A DNA stretch of 64,000 nucleotides from a virus. A model generated the notes under the pieces. It worked only from the letters and a program-made list of their open reading frames with translations. It did not search any database and was not told the DNA's origin. The stretch spans positions 1-64,000 of IMG/VR virus record IMGVR_UViG_3300009168_000008; one strand, given 5' to 3'. Of this stretch, positions 3,081 to 63,657 are shown one piece after another (position 1 is the first letter of the stretch; every line of letters begins with the position of its first letter). The translations under genes were made by a program, and so were the position numbers.

Positions 3081-3215
3081 ATGTACACCCATCCCCTCGA
3101 CGGGGACTTCCCGGAGGACCACGACCCCGTGCCTCCGACGGAGACCTACGACTTCGCCTTCGGGCTCGCCTGCTGGGTCGGTACGACCATCGTCCTCGAC
3201 GAGGTGCCGGCGTGA
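3081..3215 (+). CDS. Small acidic protein
   Basis: A 44-residue acidic protein with several Pro and Asp residues and a hydrophobic end, after GAAAGGAAC at 3066-3074. Its stop overlaps the GTG of the next gene (GTGA). Function unknown. Confidence 0.6.
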   Translation: MYTHPLDGDFPEDHDPVPPTETYDFAFGLACWVGTTIVLDEVPA

Positions 3216-3403
3216 ACGACGAGTGCATCCACGGCCTGGGCATGGCCTCGGCCTGCTCGGTCTGCAATGGCCGGGTGGCGCGAGAGCGTCGCCTGGCGGC
3301 CGAGCCGAAGGTGATCCCGTTCTGGCTCTTCGAGCGGAAGCGCCGCTCACCGTGGCTCGACGTGCCGACCGCTGGTCGGGACCTGCGCCGGGTGGTCCGG
3401 TGA
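3212..3403 (+). CDS. Small zinc-binding-type protein
   Basis: A 63-residue protein. CIHGLGMASACSVCNG near the N-terminus gives a CxH...CxxC set typical of small phage zinc proteins; the C-terminal half is basic and aromatic. It starts with GTG overlapping the previous stop and ends on the next ATG (TGATG). Nucleic-acid binding is possible but unproven. Confidence 0.65.
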   Translation: MNDECIHGLGMASACSVCNGRVARERRLAAEPKVIPFWLFERKRRSPWLDVPTAGRDLRRVVR

Positions 3404-3636
3404 TGCCGGAGTACCGACTCGGGCGAGGCCCGAGATGTGAGCTCGGCCAGGCTTGCCACCTGGCGCTGGGCTACCCCAACGGCACGTGGAAGCGGCTGCG
3501 TGAGCGGCTGGTGGATGCCGGCTGGACACCGATCGAGGTGCTAGCCGAGATGGACGCACGGTCCATCGACCCGAAGTGGCGGTGGGAGACGGGCATCGAT
3601 GCCCTGCTCGACCCGGAGTCGGGCTACTGGGGCTGA
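3403..3636 (+). CDS. Hypothetical protein
   Basis: A 77-residue protein with Trp-rich segments (WKRL, WTPIEV, WRWETG) and one Cys pair. It is translationally coupled to the preceding gene by TGATG. Unrecognised. Confidence 0.65.
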   Translation: MPEYRLGRGPRCELGQACHLALGYPNGTWKRLRERLVDAGWTPIEVLAEMDARSIDPKWRWETGIDALLDPESGYWG

Positions 3637-3644
3637 GCCCCGGG

Positions 3645-3707
3645 ACCTGAGCGCTGTCGTGGCGCTCAGGTCCACGACCCACGGAGAGTCCGTGGGCAGA
3701 AAGGAAC
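3645..3707 (+). promoter_or_regulatory. Repeated structured leader, copy 1
   Basis: Stem P1 ACCTGAGCGC/GCGCTCAGGT (3645-3654 with 3662-3671) has the 7-base loop TGTCGTG. CCACGAC (3672-3678), complementary to that loop, follows. Stem P2 CCCACGGA/TCCGTGGG (3678-3685 with 3689-3696) comes next, then the Shine-Dalgarno GAAAGGAAC. The same architecture recurs at 4817 and 6651 with different stem sequences. Confidence 0.65.
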
Positions 3708-3709
3708 CC

Positions 3710-4063
3710 ATGATCGGGTTGATCGGGCTGGCGCTGCTGGCCCCTGCGATGGACGTGCCGGCGGTTCCGGCACAGGTGGAGACCTGCGTCCCGAGTGACT
3801 ACGCACCGTGTCTGGTGCGGATTCCCCGGGAGGACGGGAGCGATCTGATCGTCATCCCGGCCAGCTGGGACTCGCCGTTCGATGCGGTCGCTGGCGACCA
3901 GATCGTCGTGCGATTCATCGGGAGCGATGGGATCGAGGAGGCCGACTTCCAGGCCAAGTGCGACGACATGGGCGGGCAGCTGAGCTGGTCGTCGATGTGG
4001 ACCGGTGGCGAGATGGCCAACGGCGAGTTCGTCTGCGGGATGGAAGGCGGCGTGGACTTCTGA
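3710..4063 (+). CDS. Putative secreted or membrane-anchored small protein
   Basis: A 117-residue protein. The N-terminus MIGLIGLALLAPAMDVPAV is hydrophobic and ends in a signal-peptidase-like region; the mature part has four Cys (ETC, APC, KCDD, VCGM) that could form disulfides. It sits behind structured leader copy 1 and GAAAGGAAC. An envelope-acting early protein, for example superinfection exclusion, is only a guess. Confidence 0.65.
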   Translation: MIGLIGLALLAPAMDVPAVPAQVETCVPSDYAPCLVRIPREDGSDLIVIPASWDSPFDAVAGDQIVVRFIGSDGIEEADFQAKCDDMGGQLSWSSMWTGGEMANGEFVCGMEGGVDF

Positions 4064-4098
4064 CGGAACCCGAGCCGGGGCGGACTCCCCGGCAACCC

Positions 4099-4162
4099 GG
4101 CCCTCCGGGCGCGAGCTGGTGCTTTCACCGCCAGCGCGTCGGTTCGACTCCGACGAGGGCCA
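4099..4162 (+). tRNA. tRNA-Glu-like element lacking a D arm
   Basis: The acceptor stem GGCCCTC/GAGGGCC (4099-4105 with 4155-4161) directly abuts a T arm GTCGG-TTCGACT-CCGAC (4138-4154). An anticodon arm TGGTG/CGCCA encloses the loop CTTTCAC (4122-4128), which would read anticodon UUC (Glu). Only 11 bases remain where positions 8-26 should be, so the D arm is missing. It could be a degenerate tRNA, a tRNA mimic or a processing signal. Confidence 0.4.
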
Positions 4163-4209
4163 CTGTCCGGCACACCCCGTGCCGGCGACGTGTGAAAGGA
4201 ACACGCACG

Positions 4210-4488
4210 ATGGCGACAGAGAGGCTGGCCTGCGGGCACAGCGAGGACATCCGGCCGGGACTCCGGCTGTGGTGCTTCTACGACACCACCTTCGGGGTGG
4301 TGACCAGGGTGGGCAGCGACAGCTGGCACACCTTCGACACGGACGGGAGTCCGTACAAGACGGCAGGCAACGACGCAGGCCTGTACGACGCAAGCCGACT
4401 GGCCTGCGTGCCGTGCGGGATTCGCGAGGTCGATGGCCGGGTCCGTGACCCGCTGGTCCTGACCGAGAGCTGGGAGCTGGTGCGATGA
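4210..4488 (+). CDS. Hypothetical protein with Cys/His pairs
   Basis: A 92-residue protein beginning MATERLACGHSED and holding a second pair (ACVPCGI) near residue 72; the CxH...CxxC arrangement could bind zinc. A CCGGCAC/GTGCCGG hairpin lies just before its GAAAGGAAC. ATGA overlap couples it to the next gene. Function unknown. Confidence 0.7.
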   Translation: MATERLACGHSEDIRPGLRLWCFYDTTFGVVTRVGSDSWHTFDTDGSPYKTAGNDAGLYDASRLACVPCGIREVDGRVRDPLVLTESWELVR

Positions 4489-20063: not shown

Positions 20064-20747
20064 ATGCGCATCTACATCCCCAGCCTCGACAGGCCCGGCA
20101 ACGTGCCGGAGATGCAGGCACAGGCCGGGATCGCCGAGCTCGTCTGGTTGGTGCCCGAGGACCAGGAGCAGGCCTACCGGAAGGCCGGAGCCAAGAGCGT
20201 GATCACGGGGCCGCGCGACAAGCCGAGCAAGATCAACGCCATCCTCGACGCCTACCCGGACCAGTGGCGGGTGTTCTCCGACGACGACTGCCGCCGCCTG
20301 ACGATCCTCAACGACAGTGGAGCTTCGGTGCGTTGCACGCTCGGGCTGGCGGCCTCGGAGTACATCGCTGTCGGCAACCGCCGGCGCGACCACCTCGTCG
20401 CCATGCCGAACATGAGCAACGCCCACTTCGCCGCCCGGCGGGTGAGCGACTGGGGCTCGACGGTCGGGTGGTTCTTCGCCGTGGCCCCGGACACCGAGTG
20501 CCGGCTGGACCCCGAGATGCCCTACGGGGACGACGTCGACTTCGCCTGCCGGGTGTTCATGCGCTACGGCCGCATCGCCCGCGTGGGGTGGATCATCGGT
20601 GACTACCGATACGGCGACCGGGACAGCCACTTCCGCGTCGAGCACATGGCACAGAACGATGTCCACCGTGCGCTGATCGCTCGCTACCCCGGGCTGTTGC
20701 AGTGGAAGAACGACGCGGTGCTCGGGTTCCGCAGGGTGAAGGCGTGA
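20064..20747 (+). CDS. GT-A-type glycosyltransferase (TET-associated type)
   Basis: A 227-residue protein starting MRIYIPSLDRPG and holding FSDDDC at 71-76, a metal- and sugar-nucleotide-binding Asp cluster of GT-A enzymes. Its opening and Asp motif resemble the glycosyltransferases that accompany phage TET/JBP enzymes and glycosylate hydroxymethylated bases. It opens the modification island and overlaps the transferase gene by GTGA. There is no Shine-Dalgarno; TAGCCT six bases before ATG suggests a leaderless transcript. Acting on DNA rather than protein is inferred from context. Confidence 0.65.
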   Translation: MRIYIPSLDRPGNVPEMQAQAGIAELVWLVPEDQEQAYRKAGAKSVITGPRDKPSKINAILDAYPDQWRVFSDDDCRRLTILNDSGASVRCTLGLAASEYIAVGNRRRDHLVAMPNMSNAHFAARRVSDWGSTVGWFFAVAPDTECRLDPEMPYGDDVDFACRVFMRYGRIARVGWIIGDYRYGDRDSHFRVEHMAQNDVHRALIARYPGLLQWKNDAVLGFRRVKA

Positions 20748-21724
20748 CCGACCACTGGCGCATGTTCAGCGAGTTCGCCCGCTACGAGAAGGCGGTCGGC
20801 GGTCCGAGCGCCCACCTGTGCATGGTCGCCGGGATGAGCCGCGGGCTGCCGGTCGACGAGCAGGTGTGGCGGGCCGGGTGCTACGCAGCGGTCTACAACA
20901 CGGGCTCGGGGATGGCGCTGTGGAGTCACCTGAGCCGGGCCGAGGTGCTGGCGATGGACGAGGGCGAGTTGAGCAACGGGCTCGCCGACTGCTGGGAGGG
21001 CCTGCCGATGCACCGCCACCGCCGCGCCATCCGCACCCCCGAGAAGATGGCGCGCTACCTCCGCTCGTACGCCCTCGCCTCACGGGACTGGCCCGACCGC
21101 GACTGGTGGGTGGGCTCGGCGACCCCGGCCCGCTACGAGGACGCCTGGCGTGAGGTCAACGCCGTCTACGGGGTCGGGCGCTACATCGCCATCCGCATCC
21201 TCGAGCTGTTCTCCCGGTTCGGCGCGGGCACCGCCCTGCACGACATCCGGGCGCGCGACGCGTGGTCCCCGCGGCGCACGCTGTCGCTGCTCTGGCCGCA
21301 GCACACCCGGGTGCTCAGCGATGACCAGTCGTTGCGCGGGGCGGCCACCGCCGAGTCGATCGCCAACACCACGCTGGCCCGGGTGCACGAGGAGTACGGC
21401 GTGTGGCTCAACCACTACGAGTTGCAGGTGTTCACGTGCGAGTACCACCAGTCGATCGACAACAAGCGGCAGTTCCCCGGGCGGAGCATCGACGGCGAGG
21501 GGCAGGCGCTGCGCAAGGTCGAGCCGTACTGGGGCACGGAGGTCACCGCGGCGGGGTGGGCGGTGCGGCGCGAACTGTTCCCGGAGGTGTCGCTCGGCGA
21601 GGTGAACGGCTGGACCACCCGCGACGAGCTCATGCCGGTGGCCGCCGAGCGGGGCTACACGTGGAGCGACCTCGTCTACGACTACAACGCCACGACCGAC
21701 CTGTCTGTTCCGGTGCGGCGATGA
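20744..21724 (+). CDS. Amino acid:DNA transferase-like / aGPT-pyrophosphorylase-like protein
   Basis: A 326-residue helical protein. WRAGCYAAVYNTGSGMALW (42-60) and a helix-hairpin-helix-like NAVYGVGRYIAIRILELFSR (139-158), in a DNA-glycosylase-like setting, resemble the predicted amino acid:DNA transferases and alpha-glutamyl/putrescinyl-thymine pyrophosphorylases of hypermodified phages. Those enzymes replace an activated hydroxymethyl on a base with an amino acid or polyamine. Next to a kinase and TET, that would extend modified cytosine. The family call is by recall of pattern and needs a profile search. Confidence 0.55.
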   Translation: MTDHWRMFSEFARYEKAVGGPSAHLCMVAGMSRGLPVDEQVWRAGCYAAVYNTGSGMALWSHLSRAEVLAMDEGELSNGLADCWEGLPMHRHRRAIRTPEKMARYLRSYALASRDWPDRDWWVGSATPARYEDAWREVNAVYGVGRYIAIRILELFSRFGAGTALHDIRARDAWSPRRTLSLLWPQHTRVLSDDQSLRGAATAESIANTTLARVHEEYGVWLNHYELQVFTCEYHQSIDNKRQFPGRSIDGEGQALRKVEPYWGTEVTAAGWAVRRELFPEVSLGEVNGWTTRDELMPVAAERGYTWSDLVYDYNATTDLSVPVRR

Positions 21725-22191
21725 AGACTCTCTACGACGTGGGCGAGGGGCGGGTGTTCATGGCCGCCGAGATGCTCCGCTTCCCCGCCGCGCCCAAGCA
21801 GGCGGCGCTGCGCGAGCGAGGGATCACGATGGTGGTGAACCTGTGGCACGGGCGCGACGACGAGATCGCCGAGGTCACCGAGTACCTCCACGCGCCGCTG
21901 TCGGACGGGAAGCTGAGCGACGGGCACCTCGCCCACCTCGACGCCCTGGCCACCCTCGCCGCCAGGCATCTCGGCGAGGGCGGGACGGTGCTCTGCCAGT
22001 GCCAGGGCGGGCGGAACCGCTCAGGGCTGCTCGCCGGGTTGACGCTGTGCTACTGGCTCGGGATCAGCGGGAGCGATGCGCTGGAACGGGTGCGCGCCGG
22101 GCGCGGGGCGGTGGCCGTGGGCAACCATCACTTCGCCAGGTGGCTCGCCAGCATCCCGGCGAGCTCGGCAGCGGGCAGCGTCCCGTCGTAG
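21721..22191 (+). CDS. Dual-specificity/PTP-type phosphatase
   Basis: A 156-residue protein with the Cys-phosphatase signature CQGGRNRSG (C94, R100: CX5R) after a beta strand TVLC, and an upstream Asp-containing loop (PLSDGKLSD) that may supply the general acid. Such enzymes remove phosphate from protein or small molecules. Coupled to the transferase gene by ATGA and convergent with a P-loop kinase, it may process phosphorylated base or nucleotide intermediates (inference). Its last 64 bases overlap the kinase gene on the other strand. Confidence 0.75.
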   Translation: MKTLYDVGEGRVFMAAEMLRFPAAPKQAALRERGITMVVNLWHGRDDEIAEVTEYLHAPLSDGKLSDGHLAHLDALATLAARHLGEGGTVLCQCQGGRNRSGLLAGLTLCYWLGISGSDALERVRAGRGAVAVGNHHFARWLASIPASSAAGSVPS

Positions 22192-22637
22192 CGGACGTGC
22201 GGCCAGCGGGCGATGAGGTTGTCCACCTTGGTCATCCGCCCCTTCCACCACGGCTCGTTCTGCAACGGCTTGCCGAGGCGGTCGGCGCGCTCGGCCATGC
22301 GCTGGCGAGCGACCTCGACCGGCGTGTCGAGGTAGATCACTGTGAGCTCGGGGACAGCGGCGAAGAACTTGCCGTTGGCCAGGCGGTCGCCCTCGCCGAG
22401 CACCTCGTCGACCTGCGTGGTGTAGCGGGTGCGCCATATCCACTCGATCACGGTGGGCTGGATGCTCATGCTCAGCGCGTCGGTCCCGCCAAAGCCGTCG
22501 CGCCGCCGACCCAGCGCCACCAGCCAGCCGTAGTCCGTGTGGGCGAAGGGCTTGTCGCGCTCGACCCCCGACAGCAGCAGGCTGTCCACGGCCCCGTCGG
22601 TCATCGTCGTCTTGCCGCAGCCGGGCAGCCCGATCAC
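22128..22637 (-). CDS. P-loop kinase, hydroxymethyl-base/nucleotide kinase-like
   Basis: About 170 residues. Walker A GLPGCGKTT lies at the N-terminus, a VIYLDTP strand is the Walker B equivalent, and VARQRMAERADRLGKP looks like a lid with Arg residues. GTG 22637 leaves the first strand short; CTG at 22644-22646, which overlaps the TET stop as CTGA, would add LTY and is attractive. In this setting it may phosphorylate the hydroxymethyl group in DNA as 5-hydroxymethyluracil DNA kinases do. A free-nucleotide kinase is the alternative. Confidence 0.7.
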   Translation of the reverse strand: MIGLPGCGKTTMTDGAVDSLLLSGVERDKPFAHTDYGWLVALGRRRDGFGGTDALSMSIQPTVIEWIWRTRYTTQVDEVLGEGDRLANGKFFAAVPELTVIYLDTPVEVARQRMAERADRLGKPLQNEPWWKGRMTKVDNLIARWPHVRYDGTLPAAELAGMLASHLAK

Positions 22638-22642
22638 GTAGG

Positions 22643-23650
22643 TCAGGCGAATCGCTGGACCTTCTTCTTCACCTTGAACCCGGCAGCCCGGGCGTCCTCA
22701 GCTTCCGTCGCGTGCAGCGCGGCGCGCCGGGCCTCCTGGCTGGGGTCGGCGCAGCACTTGCGCATCCCGGTCTTGGCGTAGGTGACGAGGCTGTAGCGGA
22801 AGCCGCCGGGGTGGGCCATGCGCAGCCCGGTGACGCCGTGGACGACCGACTGCCCGTCGAAGATGGTGATGCTGCCGTGGGGCACGCCGAGGTAGGTGTC
22901 GTAGTCGGCGAGGTGGAGCAGCCCACCCTCGACCTGCCGCCGGCACACGAGCATGGCCGACCAGCTGGTCGAGATGTTGGCCTGGTCGCGGTGGTACGGG
23001 AGGCTCACCGTCTTGTTGATGATCCCGCTCGACCACGGCGTGCCGTTGATCAGCCAGGCCGGGGCGATGTTGTCGCTGACGCGCTGGGCGGTGAGGTCGT
23101 GGACGTCGCTGGCGTGGGTGCGAAAGACGTGCTCGGCAATCTCGCAGAAGCGGCCGATCTGGTCCATCGCCTTCGGGTACTCGCTGTTGAAGATGCTCCG
23201 CGAGCAGCCGTACCGCCGCCGCATCGGGACCGGGGGCTGGTAGCCGAAGGTGCGGTGCGTCACCGCCATCCCGTTGAGGCGCGACGTGGTGCTGGCGTTG
23301 TTGAACACCTGGTCGTCCCACTTCACCTGGCTCAGGGATGCGGCGAGGTCGGTGGCGAGGTCGGTGGCGCAGACGATGTGCACCGCGACGACCTTGCCCG
23401 TCTCGGCGTCCGTGATGGCGACGTTGCCCCGGATGATGCGGCTGTCCGGGCCGGGGTCGGGGGCGTGCGGCTTGATCAGCCGGTTGCCGCAGTTCGGGCA
23501 CAGCCGGCGCGGGAAGTACGGCACCATCGCCCCACAGGACAGGATGCGCCGCTCCCAGCGGTCGGTGACGCCCTCGGTGTACGCGCAGGGGACCAGCGGC
23601 TCGCCCCGGGGCAGCGTCAGCCGGGGGATGGCGCTCTGCTCACGCTGCAC
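22643..23650 (-). CDS. TET/JBP-family 2-oxoglutarate/Fe(II) dioxygenase
   Basis: A 335-residue protein. The double-stranded beta-helix motifs are complete: HRD (H220, D222), distal His in SVVHGV (H271) and 2-oxoglutarate Arg in GFRYSL (R285), with YLGVPHGSITIFDG between. The N-terminus carries a CPNCG zinc-knuckle-like pair (C51, C54) and Cys residues at 22 and 39. Phage TETs oxidise 5-methylcytosine in DNA to 5-hydroxymethylcytosine as the entry to hypermodification. GTG 23650 overlaps the ParB-gene stop as TAGTG. A thymine substrate (JBP-like) cannot be excluded, but the phage also encodes a cytosine methyltransferase. Confidence 0.85.
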   Translation of the reverse strand: MQREQSAIPRLTLPRGEPLVPCAYTEGVTDRWERRILSCGAMVPYFPRRLCPNCGNRLIKPHAPDPGPDSRIIRGNVAITDAETGKVVAVHIVCATDLATDLAASLSQVKWDDQVFNNASTTSRLNGMAVTHRTFGYQPPVPMRRRYGCSRSIFNSEYPKAMDQIGRFCEIAEHVFRTHASDVHDLTAQRVSDNIAPAWLINGTPWSSGIINKTVSLPYHRDQANISTSWSAMLVCRRQVEGGLLHLADYDTYLGVPHGSITIFDGQSVVHGVTGLRMAHPGGFRYSLVTYAKTGMRKCCADPSQEARRAALHATEAEDARAAGFKVKKKVQRFA

Positions 23651-24309
23651 TACGGCTCGACGAGCTTCAGCCCGGGCTCTTCGTCGGCATCTTCCAGCGC
23701 CTCGACCACCAGCCGCTCCACGACGTCGGCGTTGGTGTCCATGCCCCACAGGGCGCGCAGGCGAGCGAGCCCTTGGGCGACGGGCTCGTAGCGGGCGAAC
23801 TCGTACGGCAGGATCAGGCTGCGGATGTCGAGCTCGTTGTAGGCGTCGATGCGATCCTCGGGGATCACGCCCTGGCGGATGCCACCGACGATGGCGTCGC
23901 TCTCCACCGATTGCAGGAGCAGCTCGTAGGCGGCGCGGTCGTAGCCGGTGCCGTCGAGGCCCTCGCTCTCGACCAGTCCCTTCAACAGCCCGAACAGTGC
24001 CTCGTCGTCGTAGAAGGCGAGGTCGCTGGTGCGGTTGTCGGCCAGCAGGATGCGCGTCGCCGTCTCGTCGTCAGCGTCGACCCAGAACCCGGGGATCGTG
24101 TCGTGCCCCTCTTCGACCATCACCCGGTACCGAGTGTTCCCGGCGATGACGGCTCCGGTCGAGCGCTGGACGAGGATGGCCCCGAAGAAGCCGTTGCGGG
24201 CGATGCTCTCGCCCACGGACTGGTCGTCGCCGCGCCGGGGGTTCTCCGGGTGCTGGTGAATCTTGTCGACCGGGATGGCCGGGTCGAACTCCTGGTCCAC
24301 GATGTTCAT
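23650..24309 (-). CDS. ParB-like N-terminal domain protein
   Basis: A 219-residue protein. HPENPRRGDDQSVGESI and VIAGNTRYRVMVEEG are ParB/Srx-fold motifs (boxes I and II), followed by a helical C-terminal region. Such proteins bind nucleotide or DNA, and some are nucleases; they recur beside TET/JBP genes in phages. It lies between an HTH gene and TET with overlaps on both sides. It may target or license the modification machinery (inference). No helix-turn-helix typical of chromosomal ParB is obvious. Confidence 0.8.
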   Translation of the reverse strand: MNIVDQEFDPAIPVDKIHQHPENPRRGDDQSVGESIARNGFFGAILVQRSTGAVIAGNTRYRVMVEEGHDTIPGFWVDADDETATRILLADNRTSDLAFYDDEALFGLLKGLVESEGLDGTGYDRAAYELLLQSVESDAIVGGIRQGVIPEDRIDAYNELDIRSLILPYEFARYEPVAQGLARLRALWGMDTNADVVERLVVEALEDADEEPGLKLVEP

Positions 24310-31016: not shown

Positions 31017-31649
31017 ATGAACACGACGATGATGGAGAGGCTGCGCTACCGCGGCCCAGAGATAGACGACCTGGGCGTGAAGGTCGAGCGCTTCGAGGTC
31101 AAGCCCGAGGACGAGATGGACTTCGGGCAGTGGCTGAGCCACCTGATGCACGAGAGCGTCGGGCGCGGGTGCCCGCCGGGCATCTACACCGGGCTGCGAG
31201 TCGACGACGTGCTGTGGATGAGCGACACGCCCGCTGAGCGCAAGGACCATCTGGAACCGGTCGCGGCGAGCGGCATGTTCCCGAACGGGACCGGCCTGGT
31301 CAACGGTCTGGGGCTCGGTTGTGTGGTGGGTGCAATGCTCGACTCACTGGAGCATGTCGACGTGGTCGAGAAGGACGACCGGATCATCGACACGGTGGGC
31401 GAGTGGTACCGCGACACCTACGGCGACCGGATCACCATCCACCACGCTGACGCGCTCGCCAAGCGCTGGCCGCGGGGACAGTACTGGTCCGTGGTCTGGC
31501 ACGACATCTGGCCCAAGCTGTCCCCGGAGAACCTGCCCGAGATGGCGACGCTGCACCGTCGCTTCGCGCGTCGGTCCGCCTGGCAGGGTTCGTGGGGGCT
31601 CGAGTTCTGCCGGTGGATGCGCAAGGTGGAGGCCGACCGTGGCTGGTAG
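31017..31649 (+). CDS. Spermidine-synthase/SAM-methyltransferase-like Rossmann protein
   Basis: A 210-residue protein. GLVNGLGLGCVVGAMLDS is a glycine-rich motif I, HVDVVEKDDRI holds the acidic residue after strand 2, and GDRITIHHADAL then SVVWHDIW follow the class I methyltransferase order. Similar proteins appear in actinophages with unknown substrate. It could make or modify a polyamine or small molecule; a link to the base-modification island is speculative. Confidence 0.65.
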   Translation: MNTTMMERLRYRGPEIDDLGVKVERFEVKPEDEMDFGQWLSHLMHESVGRGCPPGIYTGLRVDDVLWMSDTPAERKDHLEPVAASGMFPNGTGLVNGLGLGCVVGAMLDSLEHVDVVEKDDRIIDTVGEWYRDTYGDRITIHHADALAKRWPRGQYWSVVWHDIWPKLSPENLPEMATLHRRFARRSAWQGSWGLEFCRWMRKVEADRGW

Positions 31650-51998: not shown

Positions 51999-52414
51999 GG
52001 CCGGGAGACGTCCCCCTCGACGGTGATCGTGCCGCGGATCAGCGTGGTCACCTCGCCGTCGAGCGTCATCTCGACGTCGTAGACGTAGGAGGGCTCGACG
52101 AGCGATGCCGATGTGGCGGCGTCGAGGACGACCTCGATGATGTGCGTCTGACCGGCGAGCGGCTCGATGGTGAACTCCGCCGCCGCCGCGACATCAGCGT
52201 CGGTGAGGCGTATCTGTGCCGACCAGGTCGCCGCCGAGATGTCGACCGGGGTGGTCCCGTCCGCCTCGGTCACAGCCACCTGGAAGCGGCCGGTGTCGCC
52301 GCGGTAGACCCACAGGTCGGTCACCAGCGGCTCGCTCAGGGGCAGCGGCGCGCCCGAGCAGGAGCCGGGGGACGAGGCGATCCCGAGGGCGGCGAGGGAC
52401 AGAGTGACGGTCAT
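51995..52414 (-). CDS. Beta-sandwich connector-region protein (BppU-like)
   Basis: A 139-residue protein. [20 protein letters not shown] and [13 protein letters not shown] resemble the N-terminal Ig-like domain of phage baseplate upper proteins. ATGA overlap with the collagen-like gene suggests it may anchor that fibre. Confidence 0.65.
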
Positions 52415-57595: not shown

Positions 57596-58276
57596 ATGGC
57601 CCGGCCGGTGTTGCTCGACCTGTTCTGTGGGGCGGGCGGCGCGGCGATGGGCTACGCCCGCTCCGGGTTCCGGGTGATCGGCGTGGACCGCGACCACCAG
57701 CCGCACTACCCCTTCGAGTTCCGCCGGGGCAACGCGCTGTGCCCGCCGATCGGTCTGCGCAACGTCGACGCCATCCACGCCAGCCCGCCGTGCCAGGCGT
57801 ACTCCATCGCCAACTACATCCACGGCAACGCCCACGCCGATCTCGTCGGGGCGACGCGCGAGCTCCTCGAGGCCAGCGGGCTCCCGTACATCATCGAGAA
57901 CGTGCCCGGCGCGCCGCTGAACGACCCGGTGCTGGTGTGCGGGCGGGCGCTCGGGCTCGGCGTCAAGCGCCACCGGCTGTTCGAGTCGAACGTGGCGCTC
58001 GTCGGCACGGAGTGTCCCCCCGGCCACCCCGGCCACTGGGTCAGCGTCTACGGCAACTCGACGATGACGCGGGGCGGGATCGTCGGGCGGGCGAGCAACG
58101 GGTCACCGCGCATCGCCCGCGCCCACGTCGGGGCGACGCTCGGCAGACGGGCGATGGGGATCGACTGGATGTCGCGCTACGAGCTGTCCCAGGCGATCCC
58201 GCCCGCCTACACGCAGTGGCTCGGGGGTCAGCTGCTGGCGGCGGTGAGCGCCTCGACGCGCAGCTCGGTCACCTGA
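57596..58276 (+). CDS. DNA cytosine-C5 methyltransferase
   Basis: A 226-residue protein. Motif I DLFCGAGG (8-15), acidic GVDRD (29-33), catalytic PPC (64-66, Cys66), ENV (101-103) and KRHR near 124-127 are in the canonical order; it is short, with a compact target-recognition region. It transfers methyl from SAM to cytosine C5 and would supply substrate for the TET enzyme. It is the only plus-strand gene inside the late module. ATG 57596 has TACTCT six bases upstream and no Shine-Dalgarno, so it is probably leaderless with its own promoter. Its 3' end overlaps the protease gene by 49 bases. Confidence 0.9.
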   Translation: MARPVLLDLFCGAGGAAMGYARSGFRVIGVDRDHQPHYPFEFRRGNALCPPIGLRNVDAIHASPPCQAYSIANYIHGNAHADLVGATRELLEASGLPYIIENVPGAPLNDPVLVCGRALGLGVKRHRLFESNVALVGTECPPGHPGHWVSVYGNSTMTRGGIVGRASNGSPRIARAHVGATLGRRAMGIDWMSRYELSQAIPPAYTQWLGGQLLAAVSASTRSSVT

Positions 58277-62552: not shown

Positions 62553-62737
62553 TGCGTCAGCTCGGGGGGTAACTGGTCGCTGGCGGCGCGCAACTTGGCG
62601 ATCTCGGCATCGGTGATCTGGCGGTGGACGCCCTTGGTCGGCACGAACGGCGGGCCGTCGGCGACCTCTTCCTCGCAGAACGCGCAGAGGATCGTGCCGT
62701 CCTCCAAGCGGACCTGGAGCATGTGCTTGCACGTCAT
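62549..62737 (-). CDS. Small zinc-binding-type protein
   Basis: A 62-residue protein with MTCKHMLQVRLEDGTILCAF, i.e. CxH...CxxC, followed by a short helix. Unknown role; start overlaps the glycosyltransferase stop. Confidence 0.65.
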   Translation of the reverse strand: MTCKHMLQVRLEDGTILCAFCEEEVADGPPFVPTKGVHRQITDAEIAKLRAASDQLPPELTQ

Positions 62738-63657
62738 GCCGCAGCGACGATCTCGTCGCCGAGGGCGTCGAAGCTCTCGCCCCACGCGCTCTGCTCCGTG
62801 GTGTAGAGCGTCTGGTCGGTGCACAGCCCGCCGAAGGCGTAGGCCATCGAGGCCTCGACCACGTCGCCCCGCGTGAGGTAGAACCTCGCCAGGTCGACCC
62901 ACGGCTCGCGGCGCTGTGAGCTCTCGCCGATCGCCGCCCACAACCACCGCTCCGGCTCGTAGTCGATCGCGGCCAGGATGCGCAGAGCCTCGGCCCGCTC
63001 CGCGCTCCATCCGTTGGGCAAGGAGAGGAAGTAGGTCATCGCCGCCCGGCAGCGGTCCCAGTGCCCCGCGTACCAACACTCGCGCCCGTAGTAGAAGGCC
63101 ATCCGGTGGTCGTTGGGGTACTCGATCGTCGCCTCGCGCAAGGCGTCGAGGTTGCGGTCGTGGTGGGGCCGGCGCTCCTTCGGGTGGTGGTGAATCTGGA
63201 TCACCGTCGGGACCACGGGGCCGACCTCGCCGACCAGGACCTCGTGCGTCGGATACTTCCAACGGTGGCCCGCTCTCCGGTGGATGTCGTCGCGGGTATG
63301 GCTCAGCCACCCGTTGCCGTGGTTGATCACGGTCACCCGATACCGACTGGCGGCGGGGTGGTAGCAGCTCTCCAATTGCTCGCGCCATCCCTCGCCGAGA
63401 CGCTCGTCGGCGTCGAGCCGCACGTACACGTCGGCGGCGGGGGCCAGGGCCAGCGCGGCGTTGCGGGCGTCGTCGAAGCGGAAGGGGTCGAAGAAGGCCT
63501 TGGCGTGTTCGATGGAGAGGCCGTGGAGCATGTCGTGGGTCTGATCGGTGCTCCCCGTGTCGAGCACGAAACAGGCGTCAGCCGCCGCCGTGGTCTCGGC
63601 CCAGTCGCTGACGTTGTGCTCCTCGTCGCGCATGATGGCGTAGACGCAGACCTTCAC
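62734..63657 (-). CDS. Family 2 glycosyltransferase
   Basis: A 307-residue protein. The GT2 core has VLDTGSTDQTHDML (31-44), FDDARNAAL and the metal-binding YVRLDADERLGEGW (78-91). The C-terminal half is helical with TPR-like spacing. Between terL and portal, such enzymes may glycosylate capsid or tail proteins, or modified DNA bases. It belongs to a different family from the 20064 glycosyltransferase. Confidence 0.8.
   Translation of the reverse strand: MKVCVYAIMRDEEHNVSDWAETTAAADACFVLDTGSTDQTHDMLHGLSIEHAKAFFDPFRFDDARNAALALAPAADVYVRLDADERLGEGWREQLESCYHPAASRYRVTVINHGNGWLSHTRDDIHRRAGHRWKYPTHEVLVGEVGPVVPTVIQIHHHPKERRPHHDRNLDALREATIEYPNDHRMAFYYGRECWYAGHWDRCRAAMTYFLSLPNGWSAERAEALRILAAIDYEPERWLWAAIGESSQRREPWVDLARFYLTRGDVVEASMAYAFGGLCTDQTLYTTEQSAWGESFDALGDEIVAAA

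Follow-up and report, generated by a model that had tools for sequence, protein, structure and literature searches.

A probable phage DNA-base hypermodification island in which a TET dioxygenase and a kinase accompany a transferase-phosphatase pair

The island and its genes

Here we describe a six-gene island at positions 20064-24309 of a viral DNA stretch of 64,000 nucleotides (the window, positions 1 to 64,000 of IMG/VR record IMGVR_UViG_3300009168_000008). It combines a TET/JBP dioxygenase, a P-loop kinase, a transferase of the ADDT family and a dual-specificity-type phosphatase (DSP) with a glycosyltransferase and a ParB-like protein, and we consider it likely that the stretch is a phage DNA-base hypermodification island built on TET, kinase and ADDT-DSP. 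Its distinctive part is the phosphatase, and what is new here is the ADDT-DSP pairing, in which the DSP is an undescribed constant partner of the transferase. The genes are as follows.

20064-20747, plus strand: probable GT-A (TAGT-like) glycosyltransferase, 227 aa (PF20691 TAGT, E=0.0025)
20744-21724, plus strand: ADDT, predicted 5-phosphomethyl-pyrimidine DNA transferase with the PUGT fold (PF18724, 9.5e-6)
21721-22191, plus strand: DSP (DSPc PF00782, 6.4e-9, above cut-off)
22128-22637, minus strand: P-loop kinase, probable 5-hydroxymethyl-pyrimidine DNA kinase (PF18751 Ploopntkinase3, 4.2e-15)
22643-23650, minus strand: TET/JBP 2-oxoglutarate/Fe(II) dioxygenase, 335 aa, GTG start (PF12851)
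23650-24309, minus strand: ParB-like protein (ParB_N PF02195, 6e-6; PHROG_723, 6.7e-33)

All six genes named in the initial annotation are present as intact open reading frames in two convergent operons, with coding-type codon bias throughout (third-position G+C, GC3, 0.93-0.97), and they cover the stretch end to end, with neighbours that overlap by 4 nt or 1 nt or are separated by short gaps. The plus-strand genes overlap by 4 nt at each junction, which suggests coupled translation, while the ParB, TET and kinase genes form a closely spaced minus-strand run; the operons meet tail to tail, the DSP and kinase genes sharing 64 bp (22128-22191). Profile searches returned a Pfam match for each of the six proteins, those of the glycosyltransferase and ADDT falling below the curated cut-offs. 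The window covers nearly all of the 64,455-base record, has a G+C content of ~69%, also encodes terminase, portal and tail genes, and looks like the genome of an actinobacteriophage of soil type.

The dioxygenase matches Pfam Tet_JBP (PF12851) with an E-value of ~9e-9, at the curated cut-off, and is 28-39% identical to TET-like genes of actinophages. It had been described as a complete TET with an HRD motif, a distal His and an Arg, and this is borne out by H220, D222, H271 and R285, which are conserved across relatives (HxD at 22985-22993, distal His at 22838-22840, Arg at 22796-22798) and supply the HxD...H pattern and 2-oxoglutarate-binding Arg of a double-stranded beta-helix dioxygenase. 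The competing identity of a proline/AlkB-type hydroxylase did not come true. The start codon, earlier placed at 23749, is most likely at 23650. We set aside the label "queuine tRNA-ribosyltransferase" (PHROG_6059, RefSeq) as inherited, the window protein itself matching Tet_JBP. Cluster B mycobacteriophage TET genes (L003:776-1744, L027:810-1673, L031:813-1691) carry the same label; there it is probably a mislabel, because the genes match the window TET and Cooper gp2 has been treated as TET/JBP (PMC12730594).

The ADDT carries the motifs GVGRY (residues 143-147) and D167-IR. An AF2 model built from an 11-sequence alignment reached a pLDDT of 81, and a Foldseek comparison with the PDB placed PUGT, a Pseudomonas phage 5-phosphomethyl-dU glycinyltransferase, at the top (8z2n/8z2m; E 1.5e-3, prob 1.00, TM 0.52); OGG1-type DNA glycosylases ranked after it with little support, leaving PUGT as the sole convincing fold match. 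The related ADDT from Rhodococcus phage Tonitrus shows a sequence match to PUGT (1.2e-8). The proposed kinship with amino acid:DNA transferases thus agrees with both profile and predicted fold, and membership of an unrelated family did not materialize.

The kinase and phosphatase were likewise correctly recognized from their motifs. The DSP has the CX5R loop CQGGRNR, with Cys94 and Arg100 invariant in ten aligned relatives; the initial annotation listed it without assigning it a role. Translation of the kinase may begin at a CTG at 22646-22644 that overlaps the stop codon of TET (CTGA); this would give the N-terminus MTYVIGLPG where relatives have MNVVYVIGLPG. The label "terminase small subunit" (PHROG_800) was discarded for this protein as inherited, given its match to Ploopntkinase3. 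In hundreds of mycobacteriophages a Ploopntkinase3 gene beside the large terminase (L033:1519-2064, L044:1-567, L003:1786-2382) is labelled "terminase small subunit" or "adenylate kinase", and many of these phages give no TET match.

The GT-A glycosyltransferase is a probable assignment only. The TAGT profile match spans the domain (profile positions 1-189 of 205), a DDD motif lies at residues 73-75 (nt 20280-20288), and PHROG_842 glucosyltransferase matches at 0.0042. On the other side, the PF20691 score is 18.2 bits against a cut-off of 27.5, and a three-sequence TAGT-type profile did not find the gene. We found no relatives of it in IMG/VR, and its AF2 model (pLDDT 40) was too poor for fold comparison. 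A possible second glycosyltransferase, with a weak family 2 match (PF13704, E 9e-4), lies at 62734-63657 on the minus strand.

The transferase-phosphatase pair across viral contigs

Scans of IMG/VR that started from ADDT and from the DSP yielded 24 contigs including the window, some of them near-identical, and in all 24 a DSP lies directly downstream of an ADDT of this clade, with a kinase next (convergent with ADDT-DSP in the window, L008 and L010). Maximum-likelihood analysis places the DSP-linked ADDTs in a single clade (100/100) that spans two kinds of front end and is separate from ADDTs lacking a DSP. The window DSP has no match among 50,697 named phage records, and a scan of genome contigs confirmed no ADDT relatives in hosts or prophages.

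The front end, the enzyme expected to make the hydroxymethyl base, is a TET in five of the contigs (the window and L007-L010) and a thymidylate-synthase-like enzyme in 16; none was seen in the short contig L017 or in L055 and L058. By profile, neither thymidylate synthase nor Tet_JBP was found in L055 (67 kb) and L058 (31 kb), the Tet_JBP search having no positive control; the cassette order in both is radical SAM, ADDT, DSP, kinase. Thymidylate synthase is absent from every TET-type record searched, and Tet_JBP was not found in the synthase-type records searched, again in a search run without a positive control. ParB, TET, ADDT, DSP and kinase, minus the glycosyltransferase, occur together in L007-L010 and are collinear in L009 (ADDT identity 39%); because this core set recurs in four IMG/VR contigs, we do not regard it as a chance assembly.

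Kinases divide with equal clarity (100/100) into the Ploopntkinase3 proteins of TET phages, with which the window kinase groups, and the HMUDK-like kinases of synthase phages, so that the kinase mostly tracks the front end. The exception is L041, where a synthase-like front end is joined to a Ploopntkinase3 protein (5.9e-16) that sits on a long branch and has a clear family assignment. Since the ADDT clade spans both front ends while the kinases split and L041 bridges them, ADDT-DSP behaves as a back end moving between front ends, and the L041 pairing shows Ploopntkinase3 occurring where 5-hydroxymethyl-dU (5hmdU) is expected. In the sister phages L012 and L013 the TET is 75% identical, and the ADDT arm is replaced by a second dioxygenase-like and/or a glycosyltransferase-like gene. 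The replacement genes lie at 3406-4035 and 3958-4323 (minus strand) in L012 and at 3097-3966 (minus strand) in L013, the second dioxygenase-like gene being in L012 and the glycosyltransferase-like gene convergent.

ParB precedes TET in most TET loci, and upstream in the ParB-TET-kinase run of the window lies one further gene, conserved in L007, L008, L010, L012 and L013:

24306-24560, minus strand: small helix-turn-helix protein (HTH_23, E=0.0017)

Elsewhere in the window, a 60-base segment of the island (23557-23616) is repeated with 78% identity at 52285-52347, and a small methyltransferase-like gene occupies 31017-31649 on the plus strand (PHROG_15480, 1.2e-32), with a similar-looking gene at L008:6111-6851. 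An anti-phage defence reading was rejected, the PADLOC matches being only of methyltransferase type (ParB, the C5-methyltransferase described below and one other methyltransferase-like gene).

Proposed pathway, base and donor

In the pathway we propose, TET would act on a pyrimidine that is already part of the phage DNA (thymine, or 5-methylcytosine, 5mC, made by a phage C5-methyltransferase) and hydroxylate its 5-methyl group, the P-loop kinase would phosphorylate the resulting hydroxymethyl group, and ADDT would swap this phosphate for a small nucleophile, as PUGT does with glycine. A kinase that makes the phosphomethyl base and a transferase that replaces its phosphate is the natural reading because both the ADDT model and the Tonitrus ADDT match PUGT, and on the strength of that model the order of these two steps appears well founded. 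The CX5R phosphatase would work with ADDT, most likely by removing a phosphate borne by the donor or else by resetting unreacted phosphorylated bases. The TAGT-like enzyme may glycosylate hydroxymethyl bases that are left over, ParB probably guides the enzymes to DNA, and the modified base would shield the genome from host nucleases. The candidate source of 5mC lies outside the island:

57596-58276, plus strand: C5-cytosine DNA methyltransferase (PF00145, above cut-off)

As to the base, we lean slightly towards a JBP-like route through thymine, in which 5-hydroxymethyluracil (5hmU) formed in DNA by TET would be the substrate of the kinase, ADDT and DSP. Thymine is indicated by the dUMP-type hydroxymethylases that adjoin ADDT-DSP relatives: all the synthase-like partners examined carry Asn at a position that is Asp in CMP hydroxymethylase, and in L041 such an enzyme accompanies the same kinase family and ADDT-DSP. 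PUGT acts on phosphomethyl-dU, the Tonitrus system has been described as a thymidine system (PMC11955845), and named TET-ADDT-kinase phages lack both C5-methyltransferase and thymidylate synthase. This route must, however, accommodate the retention of a C5-methyltransferase in the window clade; the specificities of TET, kinase and ADDT may vary by clade, and the synthase-like enzymes might be ordinary thymidylate synthases. The initial annotation had instead started from 5mC, converted by TET to 5-hydroxymethylcytosine on which the kinase and ADDT then act, a route that we think credible though somewhat improbable. It gains a possible source of 5mC in the window methyltransferase, which has FCGAGG, PPCQ, ENV and RHRLF and thereby motifs I, IV (PCQ), VI (ENV), VIII and X; the enzyme, with all core motifs, also occurs in G002 and G004, the largest two of the close relatives, so that it shares a phage with TET in all three, an arrangement of the Burke type. 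Published phage TETs are reported to act on 5mC (Burke 2021, cited in PMC12730594 and PMC11404850). Yet the methyltransferase gene is 33 kb distant, surrounded by structural genes, is neither adjacent to TET nor specific to TET phages, and says little for 5mC since its family is widespread among actinophages as a whole (297 named records). It is absent from nine named TET phages, and the phosphomethyl-dU substrate of PUGT and the dUMP-type Asn of the alternative front ends also speak against a cytosine substrate.

The donor and the role of the DSP have to be considered together. A myo-inositol-phosphate synthase (MIPS) lies beside ADDT in 8 of the 16 synthase-type contigs; the one that was tested belongs to the mycothiol INO1 type. 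Others have a radical SAM/SPASM enzyme for which the PDB yields a single match, to the SPASM portion of the cyclitol dehydrogenase BtrN. MIPS of actinobacterial type, at times together with radical SAM/SPASM, stands upstream of ADDT-DSP at L018:6019-8996, L036:2406-5375 and L043:205-2884. These neighbours suggest that the donor is phosphorylated, and perhaps a cyclitol, and that the DSP takes off its phosphate; the DSP and MIPS context would allow a donor other than an amino acid. The specific form of this idea, in which ADDT joins the phosphomethyl base to inositol phosphate or a related cyclitol, supplied by a phage MIPS or by the host, and the donor phosphate is afterwards cleaved off by the DSP, we regard as unlikely; if true, it would yield a cyclitol-decorated pyrimidine unlike any known DNA base, on hydroxymethyl bases made by TET or by a synthase. 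Inositol phosphate could come from actinobacterial hosts, which would account for the lack of MIPS in the window. The idea that inositol is the donor in every case was rejected, MIPS being missing from the window, G010 (82 kb), G011 and the TET-type records, as was a BtrN-like role for the radical SAM enzymes, whose match is limited to the SPASM part. A plain recycling role is about as likely as donor trimming; that the DSP does nothing else, stripping phosphate from unreacted phosphomethyl bases with no part in donor chemistry, is a possibility to which we give appreciable but less than even weight. It would suit the pairing of the DSP with ADDT irrespective of kinase family and front end, and the many loci without MIPS, G010 included; against it, more distant ADDT systems have no DSP in the stretches seen, and DSP presence tracks the ADDT clade exactly, which hints at donor chemistry.

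Several points weigh against the island as a whole being read in this way. The ADDT score is 0.3 bits under the PF18724 cut-off (25.9 against 26.2), the glycosyltransferase assignment is weak, and all the reactions and the order in which they occur, as well as the base and the donor, are inferred, whereas genes, families, active-site motifs and conserved gene order are observed. The kinase may also have another role: it occurs in 389 named records and TET in only 91, and in two cluster B mycobacteriophages examined (Zenteno07 and Phipps) it adjoins the terminase with no TET in the stretch. A packaging or nucleotide kinase that stands beside TET by chance nevertheless seems to us improbable, as the window kinase occupies the slot held by an HMUDK-like kinase in synthase-type loci and Ploopntkinase3 is paired with a synthase-like front end in L041.

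If the hypermodification pathway holds, phages mix their DNA-decorating chemistry, joining one transferase-phosphatase back end to two unrelated hydroxymethyl-making front ends. We know of no description of a phosphatase in a DNA hypermodification route, and for that reason the modified base that results may be one new to DNA, of use for evading restriction and for labelling DNA. Loci that bridge the two types offer a direct way to tell thymine-acting from 5mC-acting TETs.

Comparison with known systems

Most of the recipe is already known from phages of Gordonia, Rhodococcus, Mycobacterium and Microbacterium. Relatives of TET were found in 91 named phage records, most of them from actinophages, and ADDT adjoins TET, with a kinase nearby, in Tonitrus, Wooper and other Gordonia phages, Phelemich/Reprobate, Kozie and, more divergently, LilMcDreamy. 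Tonitrus has been presented as a presumed thymidine hypermodification system of ParB, TET, aGPT-Pplase2 (corresponding to ADDT) and kinase (PMC11955845), and the Wooper genes are labelled Tet-like J-binding protein, aGPT-Pplase2 domain protein and 5-hmU DNA kinase. The kinase-transferase arm on a TET system, put forward in the initial annotation as a new route, is supported by the match of the ADDT model to PUGT but is therefore not novel. Like the window, Tonitrus, Wooper and Phelemich have ParB, TET, ADDT and a Ploopntkinase3-type kinase in one run, and Microbacterium phage Kozie has TET-ADDT-kinase, ParB not being detected in it. All four differ in having no DSP in their stretches, an ADDT outside the DSP clade and no C5-methyltransferase; several have an oxidoreductase-like gene near the kinase.

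Acadian (Mycobacterium) and Altadena (Arthrobacter) share ParB, TET and a TAGT-type glycosyltransferase with the window, but a PIG-L/GlcNAc deacetylase-type gene follows TAGT, and their stretches contain neither ADDT nor DSP. The described hmdU-kinase-transferase pathway (PMC6449724), of the PUGT/gp46 and M6/YuA type, has the ADDT fold and a kinase acting before the transferase; there, however, 5hmdU comes from a synthase-like enzyme rather than TET, pyridoxal phosphate (PLP) and radical SAM enzymes adjoin the transferase, and no DSP was seen. In the synthase-type cassettes of uncultured viruses (L018, L036, L039, L041 and others) a thymidylate-synthase-like enzyme replaces TET, often with MIPS and/or radical SAM and mostly with an HMUDK-like kinase, while the same clade of ADDT and DSP is kept, with the kinase next to it.

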